A stretch of 41,948 nucleotides of DNA from an uncultured Bacteroidales bacterium (GTDB lineage: Bacteria > Bacteroidota > Bacteroidia > Bacteroidales > UBA932). Location: contig CALVCB010000013.1 of NCBI GenBank assembly GCA_944325965.1, forward strand, positions 1 through 41,948. Reading direction: 5' to 3'. The position numbers were made by a program, and so were the translations under genes. Positions within the stretch are counted from its first letter, which is position 1. Each line of letters opens with the position of its first letter. The notes under the pieces are model-generated. The model did not search any database and was not told the DNA's origin. It saw only the letters and a program-made list of their open reading frames with translations. Below, piece by piece: positions 2,142 through 39,091 of the stretch.

Positions 2142-3265
2142 TGTATGTCCAAATGCAGAACTTTGTTTATTATGTGGTGCATATCATAGTATCTGTACTC
2201 CGCAAGCCTGCCTCCGAATATCGTATAGGGTTCCATATCGGCAAGTTGCTTATACTGTAAGTACAGTCTGCTGTTTTTCCCGTCATTAACCGGGTAATAT
2301 GGCTCCATTCCTGTTTTCCATTCAGTAGAATATTCTCTGGAAATGACTGTGACAGGGATTCTGTCCACATCGTCACCGAAATACTCGAAATGCTTGTGCT
2401 CAATGACCCTCGTATACGGGATGTCACGGCTCGTGAAGTTCACTACGGCATTCCCCTGATAGTTGCTGCATTCATGCAGCTCCTCTTCGAAGCGTACGGT
2501 CCTGTACTCCAGATGCCCGAGCCGGTAGCCGAAATATTCGTCTATCTGCCCTGTGAATACCTTCCGGAGGGCTACGGAATCCCATTGTTCCCTGTTTGAG
2601 AAATAGTCAACACCAGTCTTTACTTCTGTCCCTTCAAGCAGCTTGCCGATCAGTCTGTTGTACCCTCCGACAGGGATTCCCTGGTATTTATCGTTGAAAT
2701 AATTGTTGTCAAATACAAATCTTACAGGCAGTCTTTTGATTATGAAAGCCGGAAGTTCCCTGCAGTCCCGGCCCCATTGCTTTTCCGTATACCCTTTGAT
2801 CAGTGTTTCGTAGATGTCCTTCCCGACAAGCACGAGAGCCTGTTCTTCAAGATTGCGTGGTTCTGCGGCATTTTCATCATGCATCCTTTGAAGTGCTTCC
2901 TGCCTCTGTTGCCCGATCTTTGCTGCTGCTTCAGCCGGTGTTCTTACTCCCCACATCTGGTGGAATGTGTTCATGTTGAAAGGAAGGTTGAACAGTTTTC
3001 CGTTGAAATCTGCTACAGGGGAATTGGTGTACCTGTTGAACTCCACCAGAGAATTCAAAAAATCCCATACATCCTTGTCGGAAGTATGGAAAATATGCGC
3101 TCCGTATTTGTGGACATTGATGCCTTCCGTACAGCTGCAGTAAATGTTACCGCCGGTGTGGGGGCGTTTTTCTATCACAAGGCATCTTTTCCCTTTCATG
3201 CGGGCCCTGTAGGCGAATGTGGCCCCGAACAGTCCGGCCCCTATTATAAGATAATCGTACTTCAT
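2138..3265 (-). CDS. glf: UDP-galactopyranose mutase
   Basis: Glf interconverts UDP-galactopyranose and UDP-galactofuranose with reduced FAD in the cytoplasm, supplying galactofuranose for surface glycans. The 375-residue length is normal for the bacterial enzyme. The N-terminal MKYDYLIIGAGLFGA is the dinucleotide-binding beta-alpha-beta with GxGxxG, followed by the acidic residue of VIEKRPHTGGN; NVHKYGAHIFHT and FNLPFNMNTF are family signatures, and YTEKQWG and RIPVG-type segments line the active site. I chose ATG 3265-3263 because it gives the family N-terminus; a longer in-frame TTG start at 3277 adds four residues without similarity. It overlaps the downstream DUF4422 gene by 4 bp and follows the RgpF-like gene by about 40 bp, consistent with one operon. 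Confidence 0.95.
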   Translation of the reverse strand: MKYDYLIIGAGLFGATFAYRARMKGKRCLVIEKRPHTGGNIYCSCTEGINVHKYGAHIFHTSDKDVWDFLNSLVEFNRYTNSPVADFNGKLFNLPFNMNTFHQMWGVRTPAEAAAKIGQQRQEALQRMHDENAAEPRNLEEQALVLVGKDIYETLIKGYTEKQWGRDCRELPAFIIKRLPVRFVFDNNYFNDKYQGIPVGGYNRLIGKLLEGTEVKTGVDYFSNREQWDSVALRKVFTGQIDEYFGYRLGHLEYRTVRFEEELHECSNYQGNAVVNFTSRDIPYTRVIEHKHFEYFGDDVDRIPVTVISREYSTEWKTGMEPYYPVNDGKNSRLYLQYKQLADMEPYTIFGGRLAEYRYYDMHHIINKVLHLDIQ

Positions 3266-8207: not shown

Positions 8208-8961
8208 TGGCCGGATAATATTCCAATGCCTTATCCAACGCCTTGCGGTTGAGGTCATTGTTCAATTCCAGATTTACGGTCTTGAGAGAAAGTTCCTCAG
8301 GTTTGCCGATTTCTGCGGCATGTCTCCTGCCGTTCGGCAAAGGGACGATATACGTTCCCTTGGATACGGCTGCCAGCCAGAACCATATATCATCATTTGT
8401 CGGAGCCATAGACATGAACAATGCCGGATCAAGCATAGTTTCATCCAGAGAATGCGGGGGATACAGCACTCCTCCAACCCCTGTCTGCATAGACAGCCGA
8501 CTGAGATAATACCGTTTAAAAATAAAATCGTACCACTTGTATTTCCGCCAGTCTTTATAAGGGGCATCAAGCCGTACCTTTCTTGCCCTGTGCGCGACAA
8601 TGGCATCCGGATGACTCCTGTGCATATTGACCAGGTCCCGCAGCATGTTTCGATGATAAAAAATATCATCATCAATGGTAACAATGATGTCATCAGGAAA
8701 ATCCCTCAAAGCCGGAATCAGTTTTTTGTACGAGCGTATCTCGGCCGGATCAAACCGTACTTCGAAGACAGGGCTTTCGGATTTGAGTTTTTCAAGTTCC
8801 TGAGGCAATACCCCGTCAGGAAATTTCTGAGTGTCAAGGTACAGTACAATCCTGTCGGGAAGCAACGAGCCATTCAGGACCGACCGGATTGCTGTTGCGG
8901 CATACGGGACCGCTGCAGGAAAGGATGTAAGTGAAACTATTATTCTTGGCCTGTCATTCAT
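8179..8961 (-). CDS. Putative glycosyltransferase, paralogue A of tandem pair
   Basis: This 260-residue protein is probably a GT-A glycosyltransferase. It opens RPRIIVSLTSFPAAVPYAATAIRSVL, has IRSYKKLIPALRDFPDDIIVTIDDDIFYH around residues 77-105 with the DDD metal motif, then AHRARKV, QTGVGGVLYPPHSL and APTNDDIWFWLAA, the last probably a catalytic acidic pair. Family members sit in capsule or O-antigen clusters; I know no defined substrate. It starts inside the stop of its paralogue (ATGA overlap at 8958-8961), so translation is coupled. The final 29 bp overlap the end of the convergent DUF5672 gene, so the two C-termini are encoded on opposite strands of the same DNA. Confidence 0.8.
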   Translation of the reverse strand: MNDRPRIIVSLTSFPAAVPYAATAIRSVLNGSLLPDRIVLYLDTQKFPDGVLPQELEKLKSESPVFEVRFDPAEIRSYKKLIPALRDFPDDIIVTIDDDIFYHRNMLRDLVNMHRSHPDAIVAHRARKVRLDAPYKDWRKYKWYDFIFKRYYLSRLSMQTGVGGVLYPPHSLDETMLDPALFMSMAPTNDDIWFWLAAVSKGTYIVPLPNGRRHAAEIGKPEELSLKTVNLELNNDLNRKALDKALEYYPAIRRKLEMDI

Positions 8962-9758
8962 ATTATTCTGTTGCTATAACCTATTTTCACGCCGATTTCC
9001 GGATATTCATTGAGAATGGCCTCCAGCGCTGCAGCATTCCTGTCTGTCCCTGACTTGAAGTTGGATGTCTTGAGCGACAGCTCCTTCGGCTTCCCTACAC
9101 CCTTGGGCTTGTTGTGCCCGAAAGGCACCGGAACAACAGGTGTACCGGCAGCTACCGCGGCCGCCCAGAACCAGATGTCGTCCGTCGTGGGGGCTATCTT
9201 TGTGAACAGTTCCTCGTCAAGCATGTCCTCCTTCAAGGAATGCGGAGGGTAAAGGACACCGCCCACACCGGTCTGGATGTTCACGAAACCGGAATGTATC
9301 CTTTTCAGTACAAAGTCATACCACCTGTATTTTTTCCATGAACGGTACGGACTGCCGGGTTTCATACGTTTTGCACGGTGTGCAAGAACGGCTCCCGGAA
9401 TCTTTTCATGAAGGAGAAGGAGGTCTTTCAGCATGTTCCTGTGGTAGGCCACATCATCATCGACCGTCACTATTACTGAATCCGGAAAATCCCTCAGCGC
9501 AGGTATAAGTTTCCTGTACGAACGGATATCCCTTCCATAGTCCCTTATTTCAAAGACAGGATTGCGTCTTGCCAGCTCCAGAAGCCCCTCAGGAATACCT
9601 TTCTGCCCGAATTGTGAGAAAGTAAGGTAAAGCACCAGCTTGTCCGGAAGGACAGATCCGCCAAGAATGGACCGGACAGCCTGTACGGCATACGGTATGG
9701 CAGCCGGAAAGGAAGTCATGGACACGATGACAGGCTGTTTGGATATTTCAGGGCTCAT
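8958..9758 (-). CDS. Putative glycosyltransferase, paralogue B of tandem pair
   Basis: This 266-residue protein is the upstream member of the pair. It aligns with paralogue A along its whole length: PVIVSMTSFPAAIPYAVQAVRSIL, IRSYRKLIPALRDFPDSVIVTVDDDVAYH, AHRAKRM, QTGVGGVLYPPHSL and APTTDDIWFWAAA are nearly the same, whereas the stretch between the first and second motifs and the last 50 residues differ. This fits two transferases with a shared core and changed donor or acceptor preference. It is the first gene of its unit and is driven by the promoter at 9785-9815. It is separated by 146 bp from the divergent acyltransferase gene. Confidence 0.8.
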   Translation of the reverse strand: MSPEISKQPVIVSMTSFPAAIPYAVQAVRSILGGSVLPDKLVLYLTFSQFGQKGIPEGLLELARRNPVFEIRDYGRDIRSYRKLIPALRDFPDSVIVTVDDDVAYHRNMLKDLLLLHEKIPGAVLAHRAKRMKPGSPYRSWKKYRWYDFVLKRIHSGFVNIQTGVGGVLYPPHSLKEDMLDEELFTKIAPTTDDIWFWAAAVAAGTPVVPVPFGHNKPKGVGKPKELSLKTSNFKSGTDRNAAALEAILNEYPEIGVKIGYSNRII

Positions 9759-9904: not shown

Positions 9905-10795
9905 ATGATAAAATACAGGATACTGATAAACCTTCTTACGGCTCTGGCTCATCTCCCGCTGAAAGTGCTTTATGCGTTCAGCGACATTGCATATTTCTTC
10001 ATATACCATGTGATACGGTACCGCCGCAAGACCGTGAGGCACAACCTTGAGATGGTTTTCGGGACTGCTGACAGGGAAAGGATCATAGCCATAGAGAAGA
10101 AGTTCTACCGGCATCTGTGCGACTGCATAGCGGAAACCGTAAAGCTGCTCCATATCTCGGATGAGGAGGTCGACCGGAGGGTGGACGTCACCAACGGGGA
10201 ATATATCGACAGCATCATCCGTTCGGGGCATTCAGTGGTCCTGTTCCTCGGGCATTACGGCAACTGGGAATGGGTCCAGGCCATAATCCACCATTTCAGA
10301 GAGCCCCTTGTCGGAGGGCAGATATACAGGCCTCTGCACAACGAGACCATGGACAGAATCATGCTGAAAATCCGCTCGAGATTCGGTCTGGAATGCATTC
10401 CGCAGAAGAAGGCGGTCCGAAGGCTTCTGGCCATAGAACAGGGAGGACAGAAATTCGTTATAGGCTTCATTTCCGACCAGCGCCCGCTGGGTGCTGTCCT
10501 GCACCACTGGACAAGTTTCCTCGGCCGGGACACCCCTTACATGGTCGGAGGGGAGACCATAGGACACCATGTGGAGGCGAAGTTCGTATATCTGGATGTC
10601 GAAAAGACCGGGAGGGGGCACTATCGTCTCACCTTCTGTCCGATAGTGCCCGCCCCTGAAGACAACGGTCCCGACCCGTATACCAGGGAATTCCTGAAGA
10701 TGCTTGAAAAGACCATCGGCCGGGAACCGGCCTACTGGCTGTGGTCGCACAAGCGCTGGAAACGGCACAGGGACCGGCTTTCATCACAGGACTGA
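9905..10795 (+). CDS. Lipid A biosynthesis acyltransferase (LpxL/HtrB family)
   Basis: This 296-residue protein adds a secondary acyl chain to lipid A at the inner face of the cytoplasmic membrane. It has an N-terminal hydrophobic anchor (ILINLLTALAHLPLKVLYAF...IAYFFIYHVI) followed by the basic YRRKTVRHNLEM stretch common to the family. The catalytic HX4E motif is present as H117-YGNW-E122 within LFLGHYGNWEW. GFISDQRP and FLGRDTPYMVGGE are further family blocks. I chose ATG 9905; an in-frame TTG at 9875 would add ten residues but lies inside the -7 promoter element. Bacteroidota often carry one or two such enzymes and the exact acyl position cannot be set from sequence. It converges with the porin gene, with only 29 bp between the stops. 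Confidence 0.92.
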   Translation: MIKYRILINLLTALAHLPLKVLYAFSDIAYFFIYHVIRYRRKTVRHNLEMVFGTADRERIIAIEKKFYRHLCDCIAETVKLLHISDEEVDRRVDVTNGEYIDSIIRSGHSVVLFLGHYGNWEWVQAIIHHFREPLVGGQIYRPLHNETMDRIMLKIRSRFGLECIPQKKAVRRLLAIEQGGQKFVIGFISDQRPLGAVLHHWTSFLGRDTPYMVGGETIGHHVEAKFVYLDVEKTGRGHYRLTFCPIVPAPEDNGPDPYTREFLKMLEKTIGREPAYWLWSHKRWKRHRDRLSSQD

Positions 10796-25721: not shown

Positions 25722-25844
25722 CGCTTCCTCAGTTTTTCAGCTGCAAATATGGCATATCCAAGGACAAAGGACTTTTAAAAAAAGAAAAAACGGCATATAA
25801 AAACAGAAAAGAAATTAAAATTCAGAAAATTCTGCACATTGTGC

Positions 25845-25852
25845 TATCTTTG
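25845..25852 (+). promoter_or_regulatory. -7 element upstream of ychF
   Basis: TATCTTTG is an exact TAnnTTTG match 25 nt before the ATG at 25878. The -33 region has no TTTG at the usual spacing. Confidence 0.5.
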
Positions 25853-25877
25853 CAGGCTGATTCAAAAACGGTTTGCC

Positions 25878-26981
25878 ATGTCATTGAAATGCGGTATAGT
25901 AGGACTCCCGAATGTAGGGAAATCCACTTTGTTCAATTGTATAAGCTCGGGGAAAGCACAGAGTGCAAACTTCCCCTTCTGCACCATAGAACCTAACATA
26001 GGCTCTACAATAGTGCCCGACAGGAGGCTTGAAGTGCTTGAAGGGCTCTGTCACCCAAAGAGGGTCGTGCCCGCAACTGTGGAGATAGTGGACATAGCAG
26101 GGCTTGTAAAAGGTGCGAGCAAAGGTGAAGGACTGGGTAACCAGTTCCTTGCAAACATACGCGAAACAGATGCCATACTCCATGTGCTCAGATGCTTTGA
26201 GGACCCTAACATTGTCCATGTTGACGGAAGCGTAGACCCTGTGAGGGACAAGGAAGTCATTGATATGGAACTTCAGATGAAGGACCTTGAAACTGTCGAA
26301 AACAGGCTGGCGAAAGTACAGAAGCAGGCTCAGGCAGGAGGGGACAAGAGTGCGAAAAAACTTTATGAGATACTTCTCAGATACAAGGAAGTCCTTCTCG
26401 AAGGCAGGTCCTGCAGGACTGTCAAGTTCGATTCCCCTGAAGAACAGCAGCTTGCAAAAGAGCTTTTCCTCCTCACCAACAAGCCGGTAATGTATGTGTG
26501 CAATGTGGACGAGGCTTCAGCCCGGGACGGGAACGGCTATGTGGATATGGTACGGGAGGCCGTAAAAGACGAAGATGCCGAAATACTGGTGATTGCCGCC
26601 AAAATAGAGTCAGATATTGCAGAACTTGAAAATTACGAGGAGCGTCAGATGTTCCTTGGAGAGATGGGACTTGAAGAGTCTGGAGTAGTACGGCTTATCC
26701 AGAGTGCATATTCCCTTCTCAATCTCCAGACATTCTTTACAGCAGGGGCGGACGAATGCCGCGCATGGACCATAAACAAGGGAGACAAGGCCCCTAAAGC
26801 AGCAGGGGTCATCCATACCGATTTCGAAAAAGGCTTCATAAGGGCTGAGGTAATCAAATATGAAGACTTCGTACAGCTCAAGTCCGAAGCGGCATGCAGG
26901 GCAGCAGGAAAACTCGGAATAGAAGGAAAAGACTATGTCGTCCAGGACGGGGACATCATGCACTTCCTTTTCAACGTCTGA
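25878..26981 (+). CDS. ychF: Redox-regulated ATPase/GTPase YchF (Obg family)
   Basis: YchF is a ribosome-associated P-loop NTPase of the Obg/OLA1 group, which prefers ATP over GTP and is tied to stress and translation control. This 367-residue protein has G1 GLPNVGKS (9-16), the switch/G3 region VDIAGLVKGASKGEGLGN (from residue 71), and in place of the GTP-specific NKxD the sequence NVDE (209-212), the change linked to ATP use in this family. A TGS domain with FTAGADECRAWTINKGDKAPKAAGVIHTDFEKGFIRAEV and the closing DYVVQDGDIMHFLFNV completes it. I chose ATG 25878; a longer open frame from 25839 includes the promoter. It ends at a strong bidirectional terminator facing ppiD. Confidence 0.97.
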   Translation: MSLKCGIVGLPNVGKSTLFNCISSGKAQSANFPFCTIEPNIGSTIVPDRRLEVLEGLCHPKRVVPATVEIVDIAGLVKGASKGEGLGNQFLANIRETDAILHVLRCFEDPNIVHVDGSVDPVRDKEVIDMELQMKDLETVENRLAKVQKQAQAGGDKSAKKLYEILLRYKEVLLEGRSCRTVKFDSPEEQQLAKELFLLTNKPVMYVCNVDEASARDGNGYVDMVREAVKDEDAEILVIAAKIESDIAELENYEERQMFLGEMGLEESGVVRLIQSAYSLLNLQTFFTAGADECRAWTINKGDKAPKAAGVIHTDFEKGFIRAEVIKYEDFVQLKSEAACRAAGKLGIEGKDYVVQDGDIMHFLFNV

Positions 26982-33240: not shown

Positions 33241-36200
33241 TCAGTTCTTTTTCAGTCTGCACAAAGCGGAATACGCCTTTTTCAGGTCAGGGATATTCCT
33301 CGAAAATATCCTGAGCCTGTCATCAGACTGCTTGAGTTCAAATATAGTATTGTTTTCGTTTATGTTGTCAAGCACCGAAACGAATTTCTTCGAATGGTAA
33401 TACTGTGACATGGGGTTGGAAATGAAGAAGGCTATCATGACACCGTTCTTTATTATCACCTTCTCGAACCCGAGGTTCCCCGCAAGGTTCCTTATCCTCA
33501 CTATATAGAAAAGCCTGTCAAGCTCGTCCGGTATCCTGCCGAACCTGTCCTCCAGCCTCGATTTCATGGTGTCAAGCACCTTTTCATCCTTAATGGAGTC
33601 CAGTTCCTTGTATATCCTTATCTTCTCTGCCGTCACATTTATATAGCTGTCCGGTATCAGTGCAGTCTGGTCGGTCTCTATGGTACAGTCGGACACTGCT
33701 GCCGAAGAGATGCCGTTCACGGGGCCTATGCCGGATTCCACACCGAGCTCCTCCATGGCCTCGGAGAGTATCTTCTGATAGGTCTCGAGCCCCATATCGG
33801 ATATGAATCCGCTCTGTTCGGCCCCGAGCAGGTTGCCGGCCCCCCTTATATCGAGGTCCTGCATGGCTATGTTGAATCCGCTGCCGAGATCGGAGAAAGC
33901 CTCGATGGCCTTGATCCTGCGCTTTGCATCATCGGTTATGGATACAAGCGGAGGCACTATGAGGTAGCAGAATGCCTTCTTGTTCGACCTCCCCACACGC
34001 CCGCGGAGTTGGTGCAGGTCGCTAAGGCCTATGTTCTGGGCCTGGTTGATGATTATAGTATTTGCGTTCGGGATGTCAAGCCCGTTCTCTATGATTGTAG
34101 TGCACAGGAGCATGTCATAGTCACCCGACATGAATTCAAGTATCTTGTTTTCAAGAGTCTTGGACTCCATCTGTCCGTGCGCCACGCATATCCTCATGTC
34201 AGGGACGAGCCTGTGCAGTATGTCATACACCGACTGGAGTTCCTCCACCCTGTTGTGTACAAAGAAAATCTGCCCGCCCCTGTCCAGTTCATAGTTAATT
34301 ATATTCCTTATCTCATCTGAATCGAAAAGCATTATCTCCGTCTGTACAGGTATCCTGTTGGGAGGGGGAGTGCTGATGATGGAGAGGTCCCTTGCCCCCA
34401 GGAGAGAGAACTGGAGTGTCCTCGGAATAGGTGTAGCGGTCAGGGTGAGAGTATCCACGGAAAGCTTCATCTGACGGAGTTTCTCCTTGGCCGTCACTCC
34501 GAATTTCTGCTCCTCATCTATGACGAGCAGGCCGAGGTCCTTGAATTCAAACCCTTTGCCGAGCAGCTTGTGGGTACCTATCACTATATCGAGGGTGCCG
34601 TTCTTCAGCCTCGCCTGTATATCCGAGATCTCCTTCGGGGTACGGAGCCTGCTTACAAAGTCAATGTTGCACGGGAAATCCTTGAGCCTATTCCTGAATG
34701 TATTGTAGTGCTGGAGGGAAAGTATGGTGGTAGGCACGAGAACAGCCACCTGCTTGCTGTCAGCCACAGCCTTGAAAGCCGCCCTAACAGCCACCTCGGT
34801 CTTGCCGAACCCTACATCTCCGCACACGAGCCTGTCCATAGGGCAGTCATCCTCCATGTCCGCCTTGACGGCACGCACAGCCTTCTCCTGGTCCGGAGTG
34901 TCCTCATACATGAAAGACGATTCAAGCTCCTGCTGCATATAAGTATCTGGAGAGAATGCAAAACCCTTGGCACTCTTTCTCTTGGCATAAAGCTGTATGA
35001 GGTCCTTGGCTATGTCCTTGACCTTGGCCTTGGTACTGTTCTTCAGGTTCTGCCATGTCTTCGACCCGAGCTTGTTGATTTTCGGAGGCTCTCCTTCCTT
35101 CGACCTGTAACGCGATATCTTATGGAGAGAATGCACGGATACGAACACAACATCATTGTCCTTGTATGTGATCTTTACTACTTCATGTATCCGGCCCTTG
35201 TCATCCTTCATCCTCACAAGCCCGCCGAATATCCCTACACCATGATCTATATGTACCACATAATCACCTATATTGAAAGAAGTGAGGTCATTGATAGTAA
35301 GCTGTTCGCTTTTCTCTACCGTCCTCCTTATGGCAACCCTGTGGTACCTGTCGAATATCTCGTGGTCGGAATAGCAGCAGACCTTATCGTCATTGTCGAT
35401 GAACCCGTTGTGAATGTCCTTGCCAGGACAGAATTTCGGGATCAGCCCGTCATTCCGGGACAGTATCGACCTCAGCCTGTCGAGCTGGGATTCCTTGTCA
35501 CCGAATATGAAGACTTTGTAGCCGGTCTCTATCCTGGTCCTTATGTCCTCGGTTAGCAGGTCGAAATTCTTGTTGAATGAAGGCTGTGGAGCTATGTTGA
35601 ACCTGACAGGGTCGCAGTCCCGGACGGAAAGGGGCACTTCTAGGTACACCCTGCGGAATCCCTCTATGCCGCTGTAGAAGCCGGCGTCACTGTACATGTC
35701 GGACGAATCGAGCCAGAATACGGAATTCCCTGGGAGCAGGGAAGTAAGGAAGACACCTTCTCCTGACCCGCCGTCACCGGCGGCAAGGTCAGGATATATG
35801 TCCACGGAGGACACTTTTTCTTTTGAGAGCTGGGTATTGCAGTCGAATATGTTGATACCGTCTATCTCGTCACCGAAGAACGATATCCTGTACGGGTTGT
35901 TGAAGGAATAGGAGAATATGTCTATGATTCCTCCCCTTACGGCGAACTGGCCGGGGGAGGATACGAAATCCACCCTTTCGAATTTTTCTTCAAGAAGGAC
36001 CCCTGTAATCTCATCATGGCTTATGGTCTGCCCCTCCCGCAGGCTGAGCACCGGCCCGGCTATCCGGTCCCCGGCGGGAATCTTCTCCTCAAGGGCAGCC
36101 GGGTATGTCACCACTACAAGGAGCCCGTCGCCGACGTACCGGGTTATCTCGCTGACTGCCGAGGTCCTCTGCACGCTGACGGTTGACTTGTAGTTGCTCC

Positions 36201-36444
36201 TCTGGAGGCTCTTGCCTGTGTCAGGCAGGAAGAACACCCTGTCCCCCTCTATGAATGTATAGAGGTCGGATACGCAATACTCGGCAGCCTCCCTGGTAGG
36301 CAGCACAATCACATGGAGCCCCTCTGAAGCCACGGATGAAAAGACGGACCACCTCGCGGAGAGGAACAGCCCGCTGCAGTATACAGGGCCGCATCCGGAC
36401 AGTCTTGAAGCAAGTTCCCTTGCTGATTTTGTACTTATCAACAT
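33241..36444 (-). CDS. mfd: Transcription-repair coupling factor
   Basis: Mfd removes RNA polymerase stalled at DNA damage and recruits UvrA. This 1067-residue protein has the full order: an N-terminal UvrB-like region, a middle linker, the RNA-polymerase-interacting CarD-like domain at ~390-450 (NIGDYVVHIDHGVGIFGGLVRM), and the RecG-like translocase with Walker A GDVGFGKTE (542-550), DEEQ (643-646), and motifs TATPIPRTLQFSL and HQLRGRVGRSNKKAF. A C-terminal TRCF domain ends it. It is somewhat shorter than E. coli Mfd (1148). It is the most upstream gene of the leftward block. Its ATG (36444-36442) overlaps a TTATCAACA box, and it faces ruvB across the 286-bp A/T-rich gap. No clear -7 element was found for it. 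Confidence 0.97.
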   Translation of the reverse strand: MLISTKSARELASRLSGCGPVYCSGLFLSARWSVFSSVASEGLHVIVLPTREAAEYCVSDLYTFIEGDRVFFLPDTGKSLQRSNYKSTVSVQRTSAVSEITRYVGDGLLVVVTYPAALEEKIPAGDRIAGPVLSLREGQTISHDEITGVLLEEKFERVDFVSSPGQFAVRGGIIDIFSYSFNNPYRISFFGDEIDGINIFDCNTQLSKEKVSSVDIYPDLAAGDGGSGEGVFLTSLLPGNSVFWLDSSDMYSDAGFYSGIEGFRRVYLEVPLSVRDCDPVRFNIAPQPSFNKNFDLLTEDIRTRIETGYKVFIFGDKESQLDRLRSILSRNDGLIPKFCPGKDIHNGFIDNDDKVCCYSDHEIFDRYHRVAIRRTVEKSEQLTINDLTSFNIGDYVVHIDHGVGIFGGLVRMKDDKGRIHEVVKITYKDNDVVFVSVHSLHKISRYRSKEGEPPKINKLGSKTWQNLKNSTKAKVKDIAKDLIQLYAKRKSAKGFAFSPDTYMQQELESSFMYEDTPDQEKAVRAVKADMEDDCPMDRLVCGDVGFGKTEVAVRAAFKAVADSKQVAVLVPTTILSLQHYNTFRNRLKDFPCNIDFVSRLRTPKEISDIQARLKNGTLDIVIGTHKLLGKGFEFKDLGLLVIDEEQKFGVTAKEKLRQMKLSVDTLTLTATPIPRTLQFSLLGARDLSIISTPPPNRIPVQTEIMLFDSDEIRNIINYELDRGGQIFFVHNRVEELQSVYDILHRLVPDMRICVAHGQMESKTLENKILEFMSGDYDMLLCTTIIENGLDIPNANTIIINQAQNIGLSDLHQLRGRVGRSNKKAFCYLIVPPLVSITDDAKRRIKAIEAFSDLGSGFNIAMQDLDIRGAGNLLGAEQSGFISDMGLETYQKILSEAMEELGVESGIGPVNGISSAAVSDCTIETDQTALIPDSYINVTAEKIRIYKELDSIKDEKVLDTMKSRLEDRFGRIPDELDRLFYIVRIRNLAGNLGFEKVIIKNGVMIAFFISNPMSQYYHSKKFVSVLDNINENNTIFELKQSDDRLRIFSRNIPDLKKAYSALCRLKKN

Positions 36445-36730
36445 TTACCTATGTTTTCCTGTTGAAAAGGTGTTGAAAACCCTGTTGATACTTTATGAAA
36501 AGTTTATTTTGCAATGCCCATGAAAAATTGCAGGCCGTGTCAATAAACTATTTCAAAATATTTTTTTCATTTTTTTTCAAATGGATAAAATACGGTTTAT
36601 CAACCATCTTTCTTTAGACCAAATACCTGTATGACAGGACATAGCATAAAGTTTTCAACTTTTCAACATCAATATAAACAACAGCTTTAATAAAAAATAA
36701 ACCTATATTTGTATATAATTTTCATTCCAG
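36435..36730. other. oriC: Candidate replication origin: A/T-rich mfd-ruvB gap with seven DnaA-box-like 9-mers
   Basis: Between the divergent genes mfd and ruvB are seven 9-mers related to the DnaA box TTATCCACA: TTATCAACA 36435-36443 (+), TGTTGAAAA 36460-36468 and 36471-36479 (-), TGTTGATAC 36483-36491 (-), TTATCAACC 36597-36605 (+), TTTTCAACT 36652-36660 (+) and TTTTCAACA 36660-36668 (+). The three minus-strand sites are spaced 11 and 12 bp apart, about one helical turn. Between the two groups lies a very A/T-rich stretch with long T-runs (36541-36600), suited to unwinding. Genes leave the gap in both directions: six leftward (27085-36444) and four rightward (36731-41855), as around an origin. 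I infer oriC. Alternatives are a regulator's binding array or chance in A/T-rich DNA; dnaA is not in the window, and the consensus box itself is absent. Confidence 0.45.
36704..36711 (+). promoter_or_regulatory. -7 element upstream of ruvB
   Basis: TATATTTG matches TAnnTTTG exactly. It ends 19 nt before the ruvB ATG at 36731, giving a leader of about 15 nt. The -33 element is not convincing. Confidence 0.5.
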
Positions 36731-37756
36731 ATGGCAAACGGCAGCTTCGACCCGCATGACGTCAGCGACGGCAAAGATAAAGAATTAGACGGAATAATAA
36801 GGCCGCAGGACCTTAAAGAATTCACAGGCCAGGACAAAATCATCTCGAACCTCAAGGTTTTCGTCAAGGCGGCGAAAATGAGGGGGGAGTCCCTTGACCA
36901 TGTGCTGTTCCACGGCCCTCCGGGACTCGGCAAGACGACCCTTGCCCACATCATAGCGAACGAGCTCGGGGTGAGCATGAAAGTGACCTCGGGGCCGATA
37001 CTCGACAAGCCTGGCGACCTGGCCGGGCTTCTCACATCCCTCGAGGAGGGAGATGTCCTTTTCATAGACGAGATACACCGGCTCTCTCCTGTGGTGGAGG
37101 AGTACCTGTATTCCGCCATGGAGGATTTCGTTATAGACATAATGATCGACAAGGGCCCGGGTGCAAGGTCGGTGAGGATATCGCTCAACCCTTTCACCCT
37201 CGTCGGGGCGACCACAAGGAGCGGGCTCCTCACATCACCACTGCGCGCGAGGTTCGGAATCACCTGCGCACTTGAATACTATGACACCGCCGACCTCGAG
37301 CATATAGTGAAGAGGAGCGCATCAATTCTGAATATAGGTATAGATGATGATGCGGCATACGAGATAGCCCTCCGGAGCCGCGGCACTCCGCGTATAGCTA
37401 ATTCCCTCCTCAGGAGGGTAAGGGACTTCGCCCAGGTGATGGGGAGCGGGAAGATAGACCTCAAGATAGCCAGGTATGCCCTCGATGCGCTGAATATAGA
37501 CAAGAGGGGGCTCGACTCTGTGGACAACAAGATACTTCGTACCATCATAACCAAGTTCAACGGAGGCCCGGTAGGGGCCAATACGATAGCTACCGCTGTC
37601 GGGGAGGACCAGGGGACCCTCGAGGAGGTCTATGAGCCTTTCCTTATAAAGGAAGGCTTCATAATAAGGACTCCTCGAGGCCGGGAGGCCACAGAGCTTG
37701 CATACAGGCACCTTGGGTATGACAGGGGGATTCCGGAGGAGAACCTTCTTTTTTGA
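36731..37756 (+). CDS. ruvB: Holliday junction branch-migration ATPase RuvB
   Basis: RuvB is the hexameric motor that, with RuvA, drives branch migration of Holliday junctions in recombination and repair. The 341-residue length is standard. Motifs: [15 protein letters not shown] at the N-terminus, Walker A GPPGLGKT (62-69), Walker B/DEIH (113-116), sensor 1 GATTRSG (159-165), the arginine finger in LRARFG (171-176), and the closing [20 protein letters not shown] and winged-helix domain ([38 protein letters not shown]). ruvA and ruvC are not adjacent, which is common in Bacteroidota. It is the first rightward gene after the A/T-rich gap; the Ntn-hydrolase gene follows after 45 bp. Confidence 0.98.
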
Positions 37757-37801: not shown

Positions 37802-39091
37802 ATGAAAAGATTTGTTATCCTTGCCCTGCTTCTTGTCCTGCTTCCTTCAGGAAGGGCGGAGGCATGCACTGCCGCCGTTATCTCCGGCAGGGCCACACCT
37901 GACGGCCGGCCACTTCTGTGGAAGCACAGGGATACCGGAGTGCTTGACAACGCCCTTGTGCATTTCCGCGGGGAGCGTTTCAGTTTCACGGGCCTTGTGA
38001 ATGCCGGAGGCAATATCGCTCCAAGTGCCTCCCCGTCCGACAGGGAAGTCTGGATAGGGGCCAACACTGCCGGATTCGCACTCATGAACACGGCGTCCTA
38101 TAACATAAAGGACGATGATGTGCCGTCAAACATGATGGACAGGGAGGGAATCATCATCTTCAGGGCATTGGGTGTATGCAGGGACATATCTGATTTCGAG
38201 CATTTCCTTGATACGCTCTCCCGTCCGGCAGGGGTGGAGGCCAATTTCGGGGCTGTGGACGCGTACGGCGGGGCAGCCATGTATGAGGTGAACAACAGCA
38301 CCTGCGTCAAATATGACATAAACGACCCTTCAGTCGCACCTGGCGGCTATATGGTGTTCACCAACTTTTCTTTTTCAGGCAGGGAAGAGGATTACAAGGG
38401 ATACGAACGCTATCTTACTGCTTCGGCAATATTCCGTGAAGCTGATTCTTCCGGTACGGCGTTTACTCCGGATTTCATATTCAGTTCTCTATCCCGTTCT
38501 TTCAGGAACGATTTTGCCGGCGTGGATTTCGGAAGGGACATTGATTCCATTGTTGATGGAGGATACGGCAACGGCATTGTCCCCGACATGGATTTCATAC
38601 CGAGGAGGGGCACATCGGCTTCTGTAGTGGTGCAGGGAGCGGCTTCCGGGGAGGACCCTCTGCATACCGTGCTCTGGACAGTGCTCGGCTATCCTCCGTG
38701 CGGAACTGCCGTACCTGTCCCTGTGTCGGAGGATGACATTGTGCCTGCCTATATGAAGCTCTCCCCGTCTTCCGGGCATTCCATTATGTGCGATACCGCA
38801 CTCGGAATCAAGGAAAAGTACGTCTTCCGGTTCGGTGTCAGCAACGGGAAGGAATATCTTGACCTCATGCCTGTTGTGTCAGGAAGGCTTCCGGAGCGTT
38901 CCCTTGTCGGATGCTGCAGGGAATCAGACAGGAGGATAAGGGAGGCCTTCTCACTTTTATATGAAGGATATGCTGACGGGAACATGTCCGGAAAGGAATT
39001 CAGGGACAGATACATTGACATTTCACCATTATTCATGGAGATATATTTAGATGAGTTCAAATATTTTGCTCATTTGCTTAAAAATCACTAA
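37802..39091 (+). CDS. Secreted C45/choloylglycine-type Ntn hydrolase
   Basis: This 429-residue protein resembles the C45 (acyl-CoA:6-APA acyltransferase-like)/choloylglycine hydrolase group of N-terminal-nucleophile hydrolases, which cut linear amide bonds. It has a signal peptide ([21 protein letters not shown]) that ends right before Cys22, and [23 protein letters not shown] fits the family's nucleophile block with the following Arg/Asp. Cutting by signal peptidase would thus expose Cys22 as the free N-terminal nucleophile with no separate self-processing. Further family blocks are [32 protein letters not shown] and VFTNFSF. AEAC is a poor lipobox, so lipidation is less likely. The substrate (bile salt, N-acyl amino acid, penicillin or other) cannot be told. 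It lies between ruvB and frdA, and its 3' end holds the frdA promoter. Confidence 0.83.

Follow-up and report, generated by a model that had tools for sequence, protein, structure and literature searches.

A probable chromosomal replication origin in the gap between mfd and ruvB of an uncultured Bacteroidales bacterium

The mfd-ruvB gap and its boxes

The window, by which we mean the whole stretch of 41,948 nucleotides analysed here, is contig C13 of a 2.06-Mb assembly of 109 contigs that is 78% complete. In it, a 286-bp gap separates mfd, the left neighbour, which encodes the transcription-repair coupling factor (33241..36444, minus strand; TIGR00580 above cut-off), from ruvB, the right neighbour, which encodes the Holliday junction helicase (36731..37756, plus strand; NF000868 above cut-off). 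The RuvB of the window shared 96% identity with its counterpart in Candidatus Cryptobacteroides excrementipullorum and clustered with two Ca. Cryptobacteroides MAGs in a RuvB tree, which indicates that the window organism is an uncultured Bacteroidales. Cryptobacteroides-type bacteria are common uncultured gut members of this order.

Genes on both sides point away from the gap, as a preliminary description of this DNA had stated: six open reading frames between 27085 and 36444 run leftward, and four between 36731 and 41855 run rightward. The leftward genes encode Mfd, a type III pantothenate kinase, a BamG-family protein, LptC, and two weakly matched proteins; one leftward gene had a weak TPR match, and another had sub-cut-off matches to peptidylprolyl isomerases. 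The first open reading frame beyond these six (25839-26981), encoding a YchF-type GTPase, is rightward. To the right of the gap, ruvB is followed by an open reading frame of 429 amino acids and two succinate dehydrogenase/fumarate reductase subunits. The 429-amino-acid frame, at 37802-39091 between ruvB and the succinate dehydrogenase genes, had no Pfam or NCBIfam match.

The same description had reported seven DnaA-box-like 9-mers in about 235 bp, and a motif scan recovered seven within one mismatch of TTWTCAACA, spanning 36435-36668 (234 bp). They form a left (36435-36491) and a right (36597-36668) group around an A/T-rich, little conserved middle with T-runs (36492..36596), a candidate spacer or unwinding region, in agreement with the arrangement first described. 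In the left group, box 1 (TTATCAACA, 36435..36443, plus strand) overlaps the mfd start codon, where coding constraint may help preserve it. Boxes 2 and 3 (both TTTTCAACA, minus strand, 36460..36468 and 36471..36479) and box 4 (GTATCAACA, minus strand, one mismatch, 36483..36491) are the three consecutive boxes of equal orientation noted before, with starts 11 and 12 bp apart. In the right group, box 5 (TTATCAACC, one mismatch, 36597..36605) is followed by box 6 (TTTTCAACT, one mismatch, 36652..36660), which shares one base with box 7 (TTTTCAACA, 36660..36668), all on the plus strand. Boxes 1, 2, 3, and 7 were also seen in the alignment of gaps described below, in which box 4 has its counterpart in a third TGTT repeat in many rows, and boxes 6 and 7 theirs in the pair TTWTCAACAtwTCAACA.

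An easily melted A/T-rich segment is present at the boxes, where the duplex is the weakest of the whole window: by nearest-neighbour energies, the least stable segments of 60, 100, and 150 bp start at 36667, 36622, and 36569, respectively. The first of these (36667..36726) is a candidate unwinding element and overlaps TATATTTG (36704..36711, plus strand), a sequence well conserved in the gap alignment that resembles the Bacteroidota -7 promoter element and would serve ruvB.

The box cluster is well above chance. A stricter rendering of the patterns first described gave six matches in the gap, whereas first- and second-order Markov models built on the gap sequence averaged 0.06 and 0.13, respectively, and six were reached in 0 of 20,000 simulations with each model. 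Exact TTWTCAACA occurred 53 times in the assembly compared with 28 times for the reversed control; four of the 53 lie in the gap, the densest group, and the other places listed hold at most two within 300 bp. The tandem pattern TGTTGAWAAN{1,20}TGTTGAWA had two overlapping matches in the assembly, both in the gap, and none in its control, while TTATCAACA alone showed no genome-wide enrichment (16 versus 14 in the control). The suggestion that the density might be equalled in other gaps was not borne out, as no second dense cluster was listed in the assembly; given that the assembly is fragmented and ~22% incomplete, a second cluster could lie in the missing DNA. Such an array might instead regulate mfd and ruvB, or titrate DnaA in the manner of datA, with the origin elsewhere. 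The box positions would suit these roles, as one box overlaps the mfd start codon and others closely precede the promoter-like TATATTTG ahead of ruvB, while the absence of another dense cluster among those listed in the assembly argues against them.

Conservation of the array and its linkage to ruvB

Relatives were drawn from a scan of genome contigs, from which the best 80 named ruvB loci were listed; 47 of these have mfd divergent within 800 bp, and 33 are arranged otherwise. All 47 listed divergent mfd-ruvB gaps have kept the 9-mers, the conservation on which the first reading had been made to depend. Counted within one mismatch, boxes numbered at least 2 (L033) with a median of 7 per gap, compared with a shuffled mean of 0.34 (n = 47), and one gap (L048) held zero exact copies. 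Across 36 aligned gaps (16 + 20, named and unnamed), the boxes were similar in place and orientation, with conservation of a left TGTTGAWAA tandem, a right TTWTCAACAtwTCAACA pair, and TATATTTGTA before ruvB; the middle showed little further conservation.

The array goes with ruvB, as indicated by its presence upstream of ruvB where mfd is not beside it and by matches found near ruvB without regard to genes. In four MAGs that form one clade in the RuvB tree (L057, L060, L062, and L064), mfd lies on the opposite side of ruvB and the array is still found upstream of ruvB, with 4-6 boxes per 300 bp, and three further loci (L061, L069, and L074) had box scores of 7-9 within 450 bp upstream of ruvB. 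A gene-blind search with the pair motif TWTCAACAWWTCAACA gave 43 matches in 34 of 119 genomes of the window organism's family, compared with 6 matches in 5 genomes for its reversed control in the same 119. Among 30 of the 43 matches that were examined, ruvB was found at 20, starting within ~130 bp in 19 cases and ~1 kb away in one, and several of these ruvB loci had no mfd hit. The strict pair was absent from 85 of the 119 family genomes, the window genome among them, and the Alistipes-type loci, the Muribaculaceae loci, and L108-L119, which are order-level ruvB loci, had upstream box scores near the shuffled range.

Several other arrangements were observed. In three Prevotellaceae MAGs (L066, at 8797-8860, L059, and L058), a cluster of boxes precedes ruvB by 1.2-1.6 kb, and the skew minimum of L066 lies 1546 bp upstream of ruvB. 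Four family genomes (G380, G390, G341, and G324) have two to five copies of TWTCAACAWWTCAACA each, on different contigs, which may be additional sites of DnaA binding or chance occurrences. A tandem pattern applied across the order was dropped as too loose for A/T-rich genomes, given that 184 of 295 genomes matched and the reversed control did so in many.

Strand composition, parS, and the place of the origin

Skew was examined on 14 same-genus contigs or contig parts; the contiguous parts used were 400 kb of G016:C1 and 180 kb of G013:C1, and the sample left out G005, G014, and G015 (contigs below 40 kb), two broken ruvB pieces of G020, and G021 (ruvB at a contig end). The preliminary description had named a GC-skew minimum at the gap as a check, and this was borne out in part: the cumulative minimum fell within 200 bp of the gap on four contigs and elsewhere on ten. 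The four, namely the window, G013, G017 (258 kb), and G018 (105 kb), with lengths of 42-258 kb, have their minima 102-176 bp from the gap centre; in the window, the minimum falls a little way into ruvB, at 36753. Sampling along the 577-kb contig of G013 gave negative skew for 12 of 13 stretches before the gap and positive skew for all 7 after it, and in the contiguous part the minimum (418065) lies beside the ruvB start (418039). Over the 14 contigs, the gap had a mean rank of 0.49, so that plain skew gives no average signal. Among the 35 of the 47 listed divergent loci with enough flank (~10 kb), the minimum was within 1 kb of the gap in only 15, and skew was higher on the right than on the left in 21. 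Plain GC skew was rejected as a sole criterion because of this unevenness, with the minimum at the gap on only four of 14 contigs and a mean rank of 0.49. Leading-strand gene bias was clear to the right of the gap on G017 and in several G013 stretches; as an origin criterion it was rejected as well, being unclear on G016 and G023.

To correct for gene direction, third-position skews were regressed on two terms, the direction of the gene and its side relative to the gap, for 11 of the 14 contigs, with G000, G010, and G011 omitted for too few genes on one side. The effect of gene direction on GC3 was negative on all 11, with coefficients of -0.06 to -0.31, and this opposite-sign effect probably hides the switch on the ten contigs where plain skew misses the gap. 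After correction, the side term at the gap had the sign expected of an origin (positive) on 10 of 11 contigs for GC3 and 11 of 11 for TA3, with t up to 18.7; this value belongs to TA3 on G013, where the best break is at the gap. Only 4 (GC3) and 2 (TA3) of the 11 contigs placed the gap among their top 5% of break positions, and we therefore regard the corrected skew as support rather than proof.

The partition site parS was searched with the strict motif TGTTNCACGTGNAACA. Reversed controls gave zero in 11 genomes, of which seven had the motif. The count took in loci no shorter than 19 kb, namely 34 of the 47 listed divergent and 20 of the 33 other ruvB loci. Strict parS lay within ~11 kb in 14 of 34 divergent loci, compared with 1 of 20 others; it was on the ruvB side in 12 of the 14 and on the mfd side in 2, and was absent from 20 of the 34. 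At L033 (1065) and L040 (2069 and 2406), parS is on the mfd side, a placement expected from an inversion about the origin. The six full-length loci among the 20 others that bear the array directly upstream of ruvB had no parS (0/6), and neither had L066, with its cluster 1.2 kb upstream. On same-genus contigs, parS was found on 6 of 13, at 7.8 to 31.5 kb from ruvB, and was lacking on 7, including those of G013 and G018 with sharp skew. An origin-proximal parS is thus found in some relatives, while the window genome has its two sites on a separate 5-kb contig that carries mnmG and hflX and for this reason probably belongs to the mfd-ruvB neighbourhood: all 8 contigs tested had mnmG on the ruvB side, 6-30 kb from ruvB, and on the four where both mnmG and parS could be placed (G016, G017, G019, and G023), parS lay inside mnmG or no more than 2 kb from it. 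In 6 of 6 genomes, parB was on other contigs.

These data bear on two other readings. An array that regulates mfd and ruvB or titrates DnaA is favoured by the 10 of 14 contigs on which skew does not mark the gap, but the skew minima at the gap on four contigs and the nearby parS in 14 of 34 listed loci are at odds with it, and we consider this reading highly unlikely. The origin could also be near the gap but outside it, for example around mnmG and parS, 6-32 kb away on the ruvB side, given that mnmG (gidA) adjoins origins in many bacteria. On two contigs the measured positions would allow this, with plain skew minima 23 kb (G016) and 31 kb (G023) from the gap and best corrected GC3 breaks 55 kb and 13 kb off, respectively. 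However, the best corrected TA3 breaks on the same contigs lie 4.0 kb (G016) and 3.4 kb (G023) from the gap, the plain minimum of G023 is on the mfd side, away from mnmG, and the four contigs with a clear switch have it at most 200 bp from the gap, with mnmG 6-30 kb off on 8 of 8 contigs. A displaced origin of this kind is accordingly very improbable.

DnaA, the box motif, and a model for initiation

The origin had been proposed to lie away from dnaA, and dnaA and ruvB are indeed on different contigs in G000, G013, G016, and G017; judged by where ruvB sits on its contig, the two genes are at least ~159 kb apart in G013 and 202 kb in G016. A scan around dnaA in 24 genomes gave no box cluster: ~2-3.5 kb around the gene held at most 2 boxes per 300 bp with TTWTCCACA counted as well, and no cluster was seen in 12 kb around dnaA in G000 either. 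Given the array above chance, the conserved boxes, the skew switch on some contigs, the proximity of parS, and the lack of a cluster at dnaA, we conclude that the mfd-ruvB gap is very probably the chromosomal replication origin (oriC); the first reading thus gained support from box conservation and density, corrected skew signs, parS proximity, and the clusterless dnaA.

The boxes depart from the classical TTWTNCACA at position 6, where they have A rather than C. Among 64 unique gaps, there were 169 exact TTWTCAACA and 16 TTWTNCACA, with four of the classical form in the L029 gap and zero in the window gap. Of 421 sites with at most one mismatch, 402 had A at position 6, all 421 having been selected for likeness to TTWTCAACA. 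Given that boxes vary between distant species, according to the available text of PMC5043019, the absent classical form makes an E. coli-type box less likely but not an oriC. The departure at position 6, together with the role of both mfd and ruvB in DNA repair, would also fit an operator array for a regulator of repair genes, LexA-like or of another type, that has no relation to DnaA, the array being kept through co-regulation of the two genes. Against such an operator stand a box one base from TTATCCACA, classical boxes in some gaps (the 16 sites beside 169, and the four of L029), boxes in both orientations around an A/T core, and an array that stays with ruvB where mfd is not adjacent; the skew and parS evidence would not be predicted by it either, and we hold it to be highly improbable.

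Returning to the oriC reading, DnaA itself may have changed along with its box. The motif KDHATV was found in 18 of 19 DnaA sequences, with KNHATV in one from another family; automatic reading recovered this stretch of DnaA at 19 of 24 loci, with 5 missed. KDHATV occurs in two other families as well (L124 and L125) and is therefore not specific to the window organism's family. Residues 432-435 of E. coli DnaA are presumably R-D-H-T, and the solved DnaA structure 8btg has RDHTTV where window-family genomes have KDHATV. In the available part of PMC5043019, residues 432-435 of the E. coli protein are described as contacting bases. Judged from these sequences, a co-change of box and protein is plausible.

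In the model that we propose, DnaA, encoded elsewhere, would bind the left array (three tandem boxes and the mfd-start box) and the right boxes by ruvB, so that DnaA-bound arrays would sit on either side of an A/T-rich stretch. An ATP-DnaA oligomer would then open A/T-rich DNA, either the T-rich middle or the unstable segment at 36667-36726; the choice between the middle and the stretch beside ruvB is a guess. Helicase would be loaded and two forks would depart, leftward through mfd and rightward through ruvB, while parS, in or near mnmG and some kb off, mostly on the ruvB side, would mark the same region for segregation. DnaA binding, the place of unwinding, helicase loading, and fork start are steps that we infer from the origin reading. 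DnaA may also dampen both genes, since its boxes reach the start codon of mfd and closely precede the promoter-like motif of ruvB. It is possible, although on balance we doubt it, that the ruvB promoter region serves as the anchor of oriC in the window organism's family as well as in some neighbouring lineages of Bacteroidales, outlasting the loss of mfd, that the initiator was re-tuned, the box going from CCACA to CAACA while the base-reading helix of DnaA domain IV took on R-to-K and T-to-A changes, and that initiation is coupled to ruvB and mfd expression via the same DnaA array.

Classical DnaA-dependent origins, as in E. coli and B. subtilis, combine an array of 9-mer boxes with A/T-rich DNA. 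The mfd-ruvB gap resembles them in both features and in the skew minimum on some contigs, and differs in that its array is not beside dnaA and its boxes have A rather than C at position 6. An oriC far from dnaA is a known kind in Bacteroidetes, where it is described as common in the available text of PMC4755523, with the first chromosome of Prevotella intermedia as a predicted case. Like that prediction, the present one has multiple DnaA boxes at a GC-skew transition and not near dnaA; unlike here, where the consensus is TTWTCAACA, boxes were sought there by the E. coli motif with one mismatch (PMC4755523). The same text, as available, does not name ruvB or give the neighbour genes of the P. 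intermedia oriC. In Epsilonproteobacteria, too, the box core and the DNA-contact residues of DnaA are both off the E. coli type, but the core there is TTCAC and oriC is typically with ruvC-dnaA-dnaN, whereas here it is CAACA beside ruvB (PMC5043019, in the part available). Probably new are the place of the origin in the window organism's family, its anchoring to ruvB rather than mfd, and the A for C at box position 6: neither an oriC at mfd-ruvB nor such a box motif in this family was found among the literature matches listed, which cover few of the subscription journals and not DoriC, and no literature was found on Cryptobacteroides together with oriC. A known origin and box motif would allow growth rate to be estimated from metagenomic coverage and draft genomes to be oriented, and would provide a testable DnaA/box pair unlike the textbook one; the mfd-ruvB origin would go unnoticed in an exact search with TTATCCACA.

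Beyond the family, a Prolixibacteraceae MAG (L085) showed a strong skew switch, from -0.157 on the left to +0.076 on the right, with its minimum 665 bp upstream of ruvB (region 9000-9600, ruvB at 10001), a parS at 3126, ~7 kb away, and a box score that did not exceed the shuffled maximum. Judging from this locus, a ruvB-linked oriC may predate the window organism's family.
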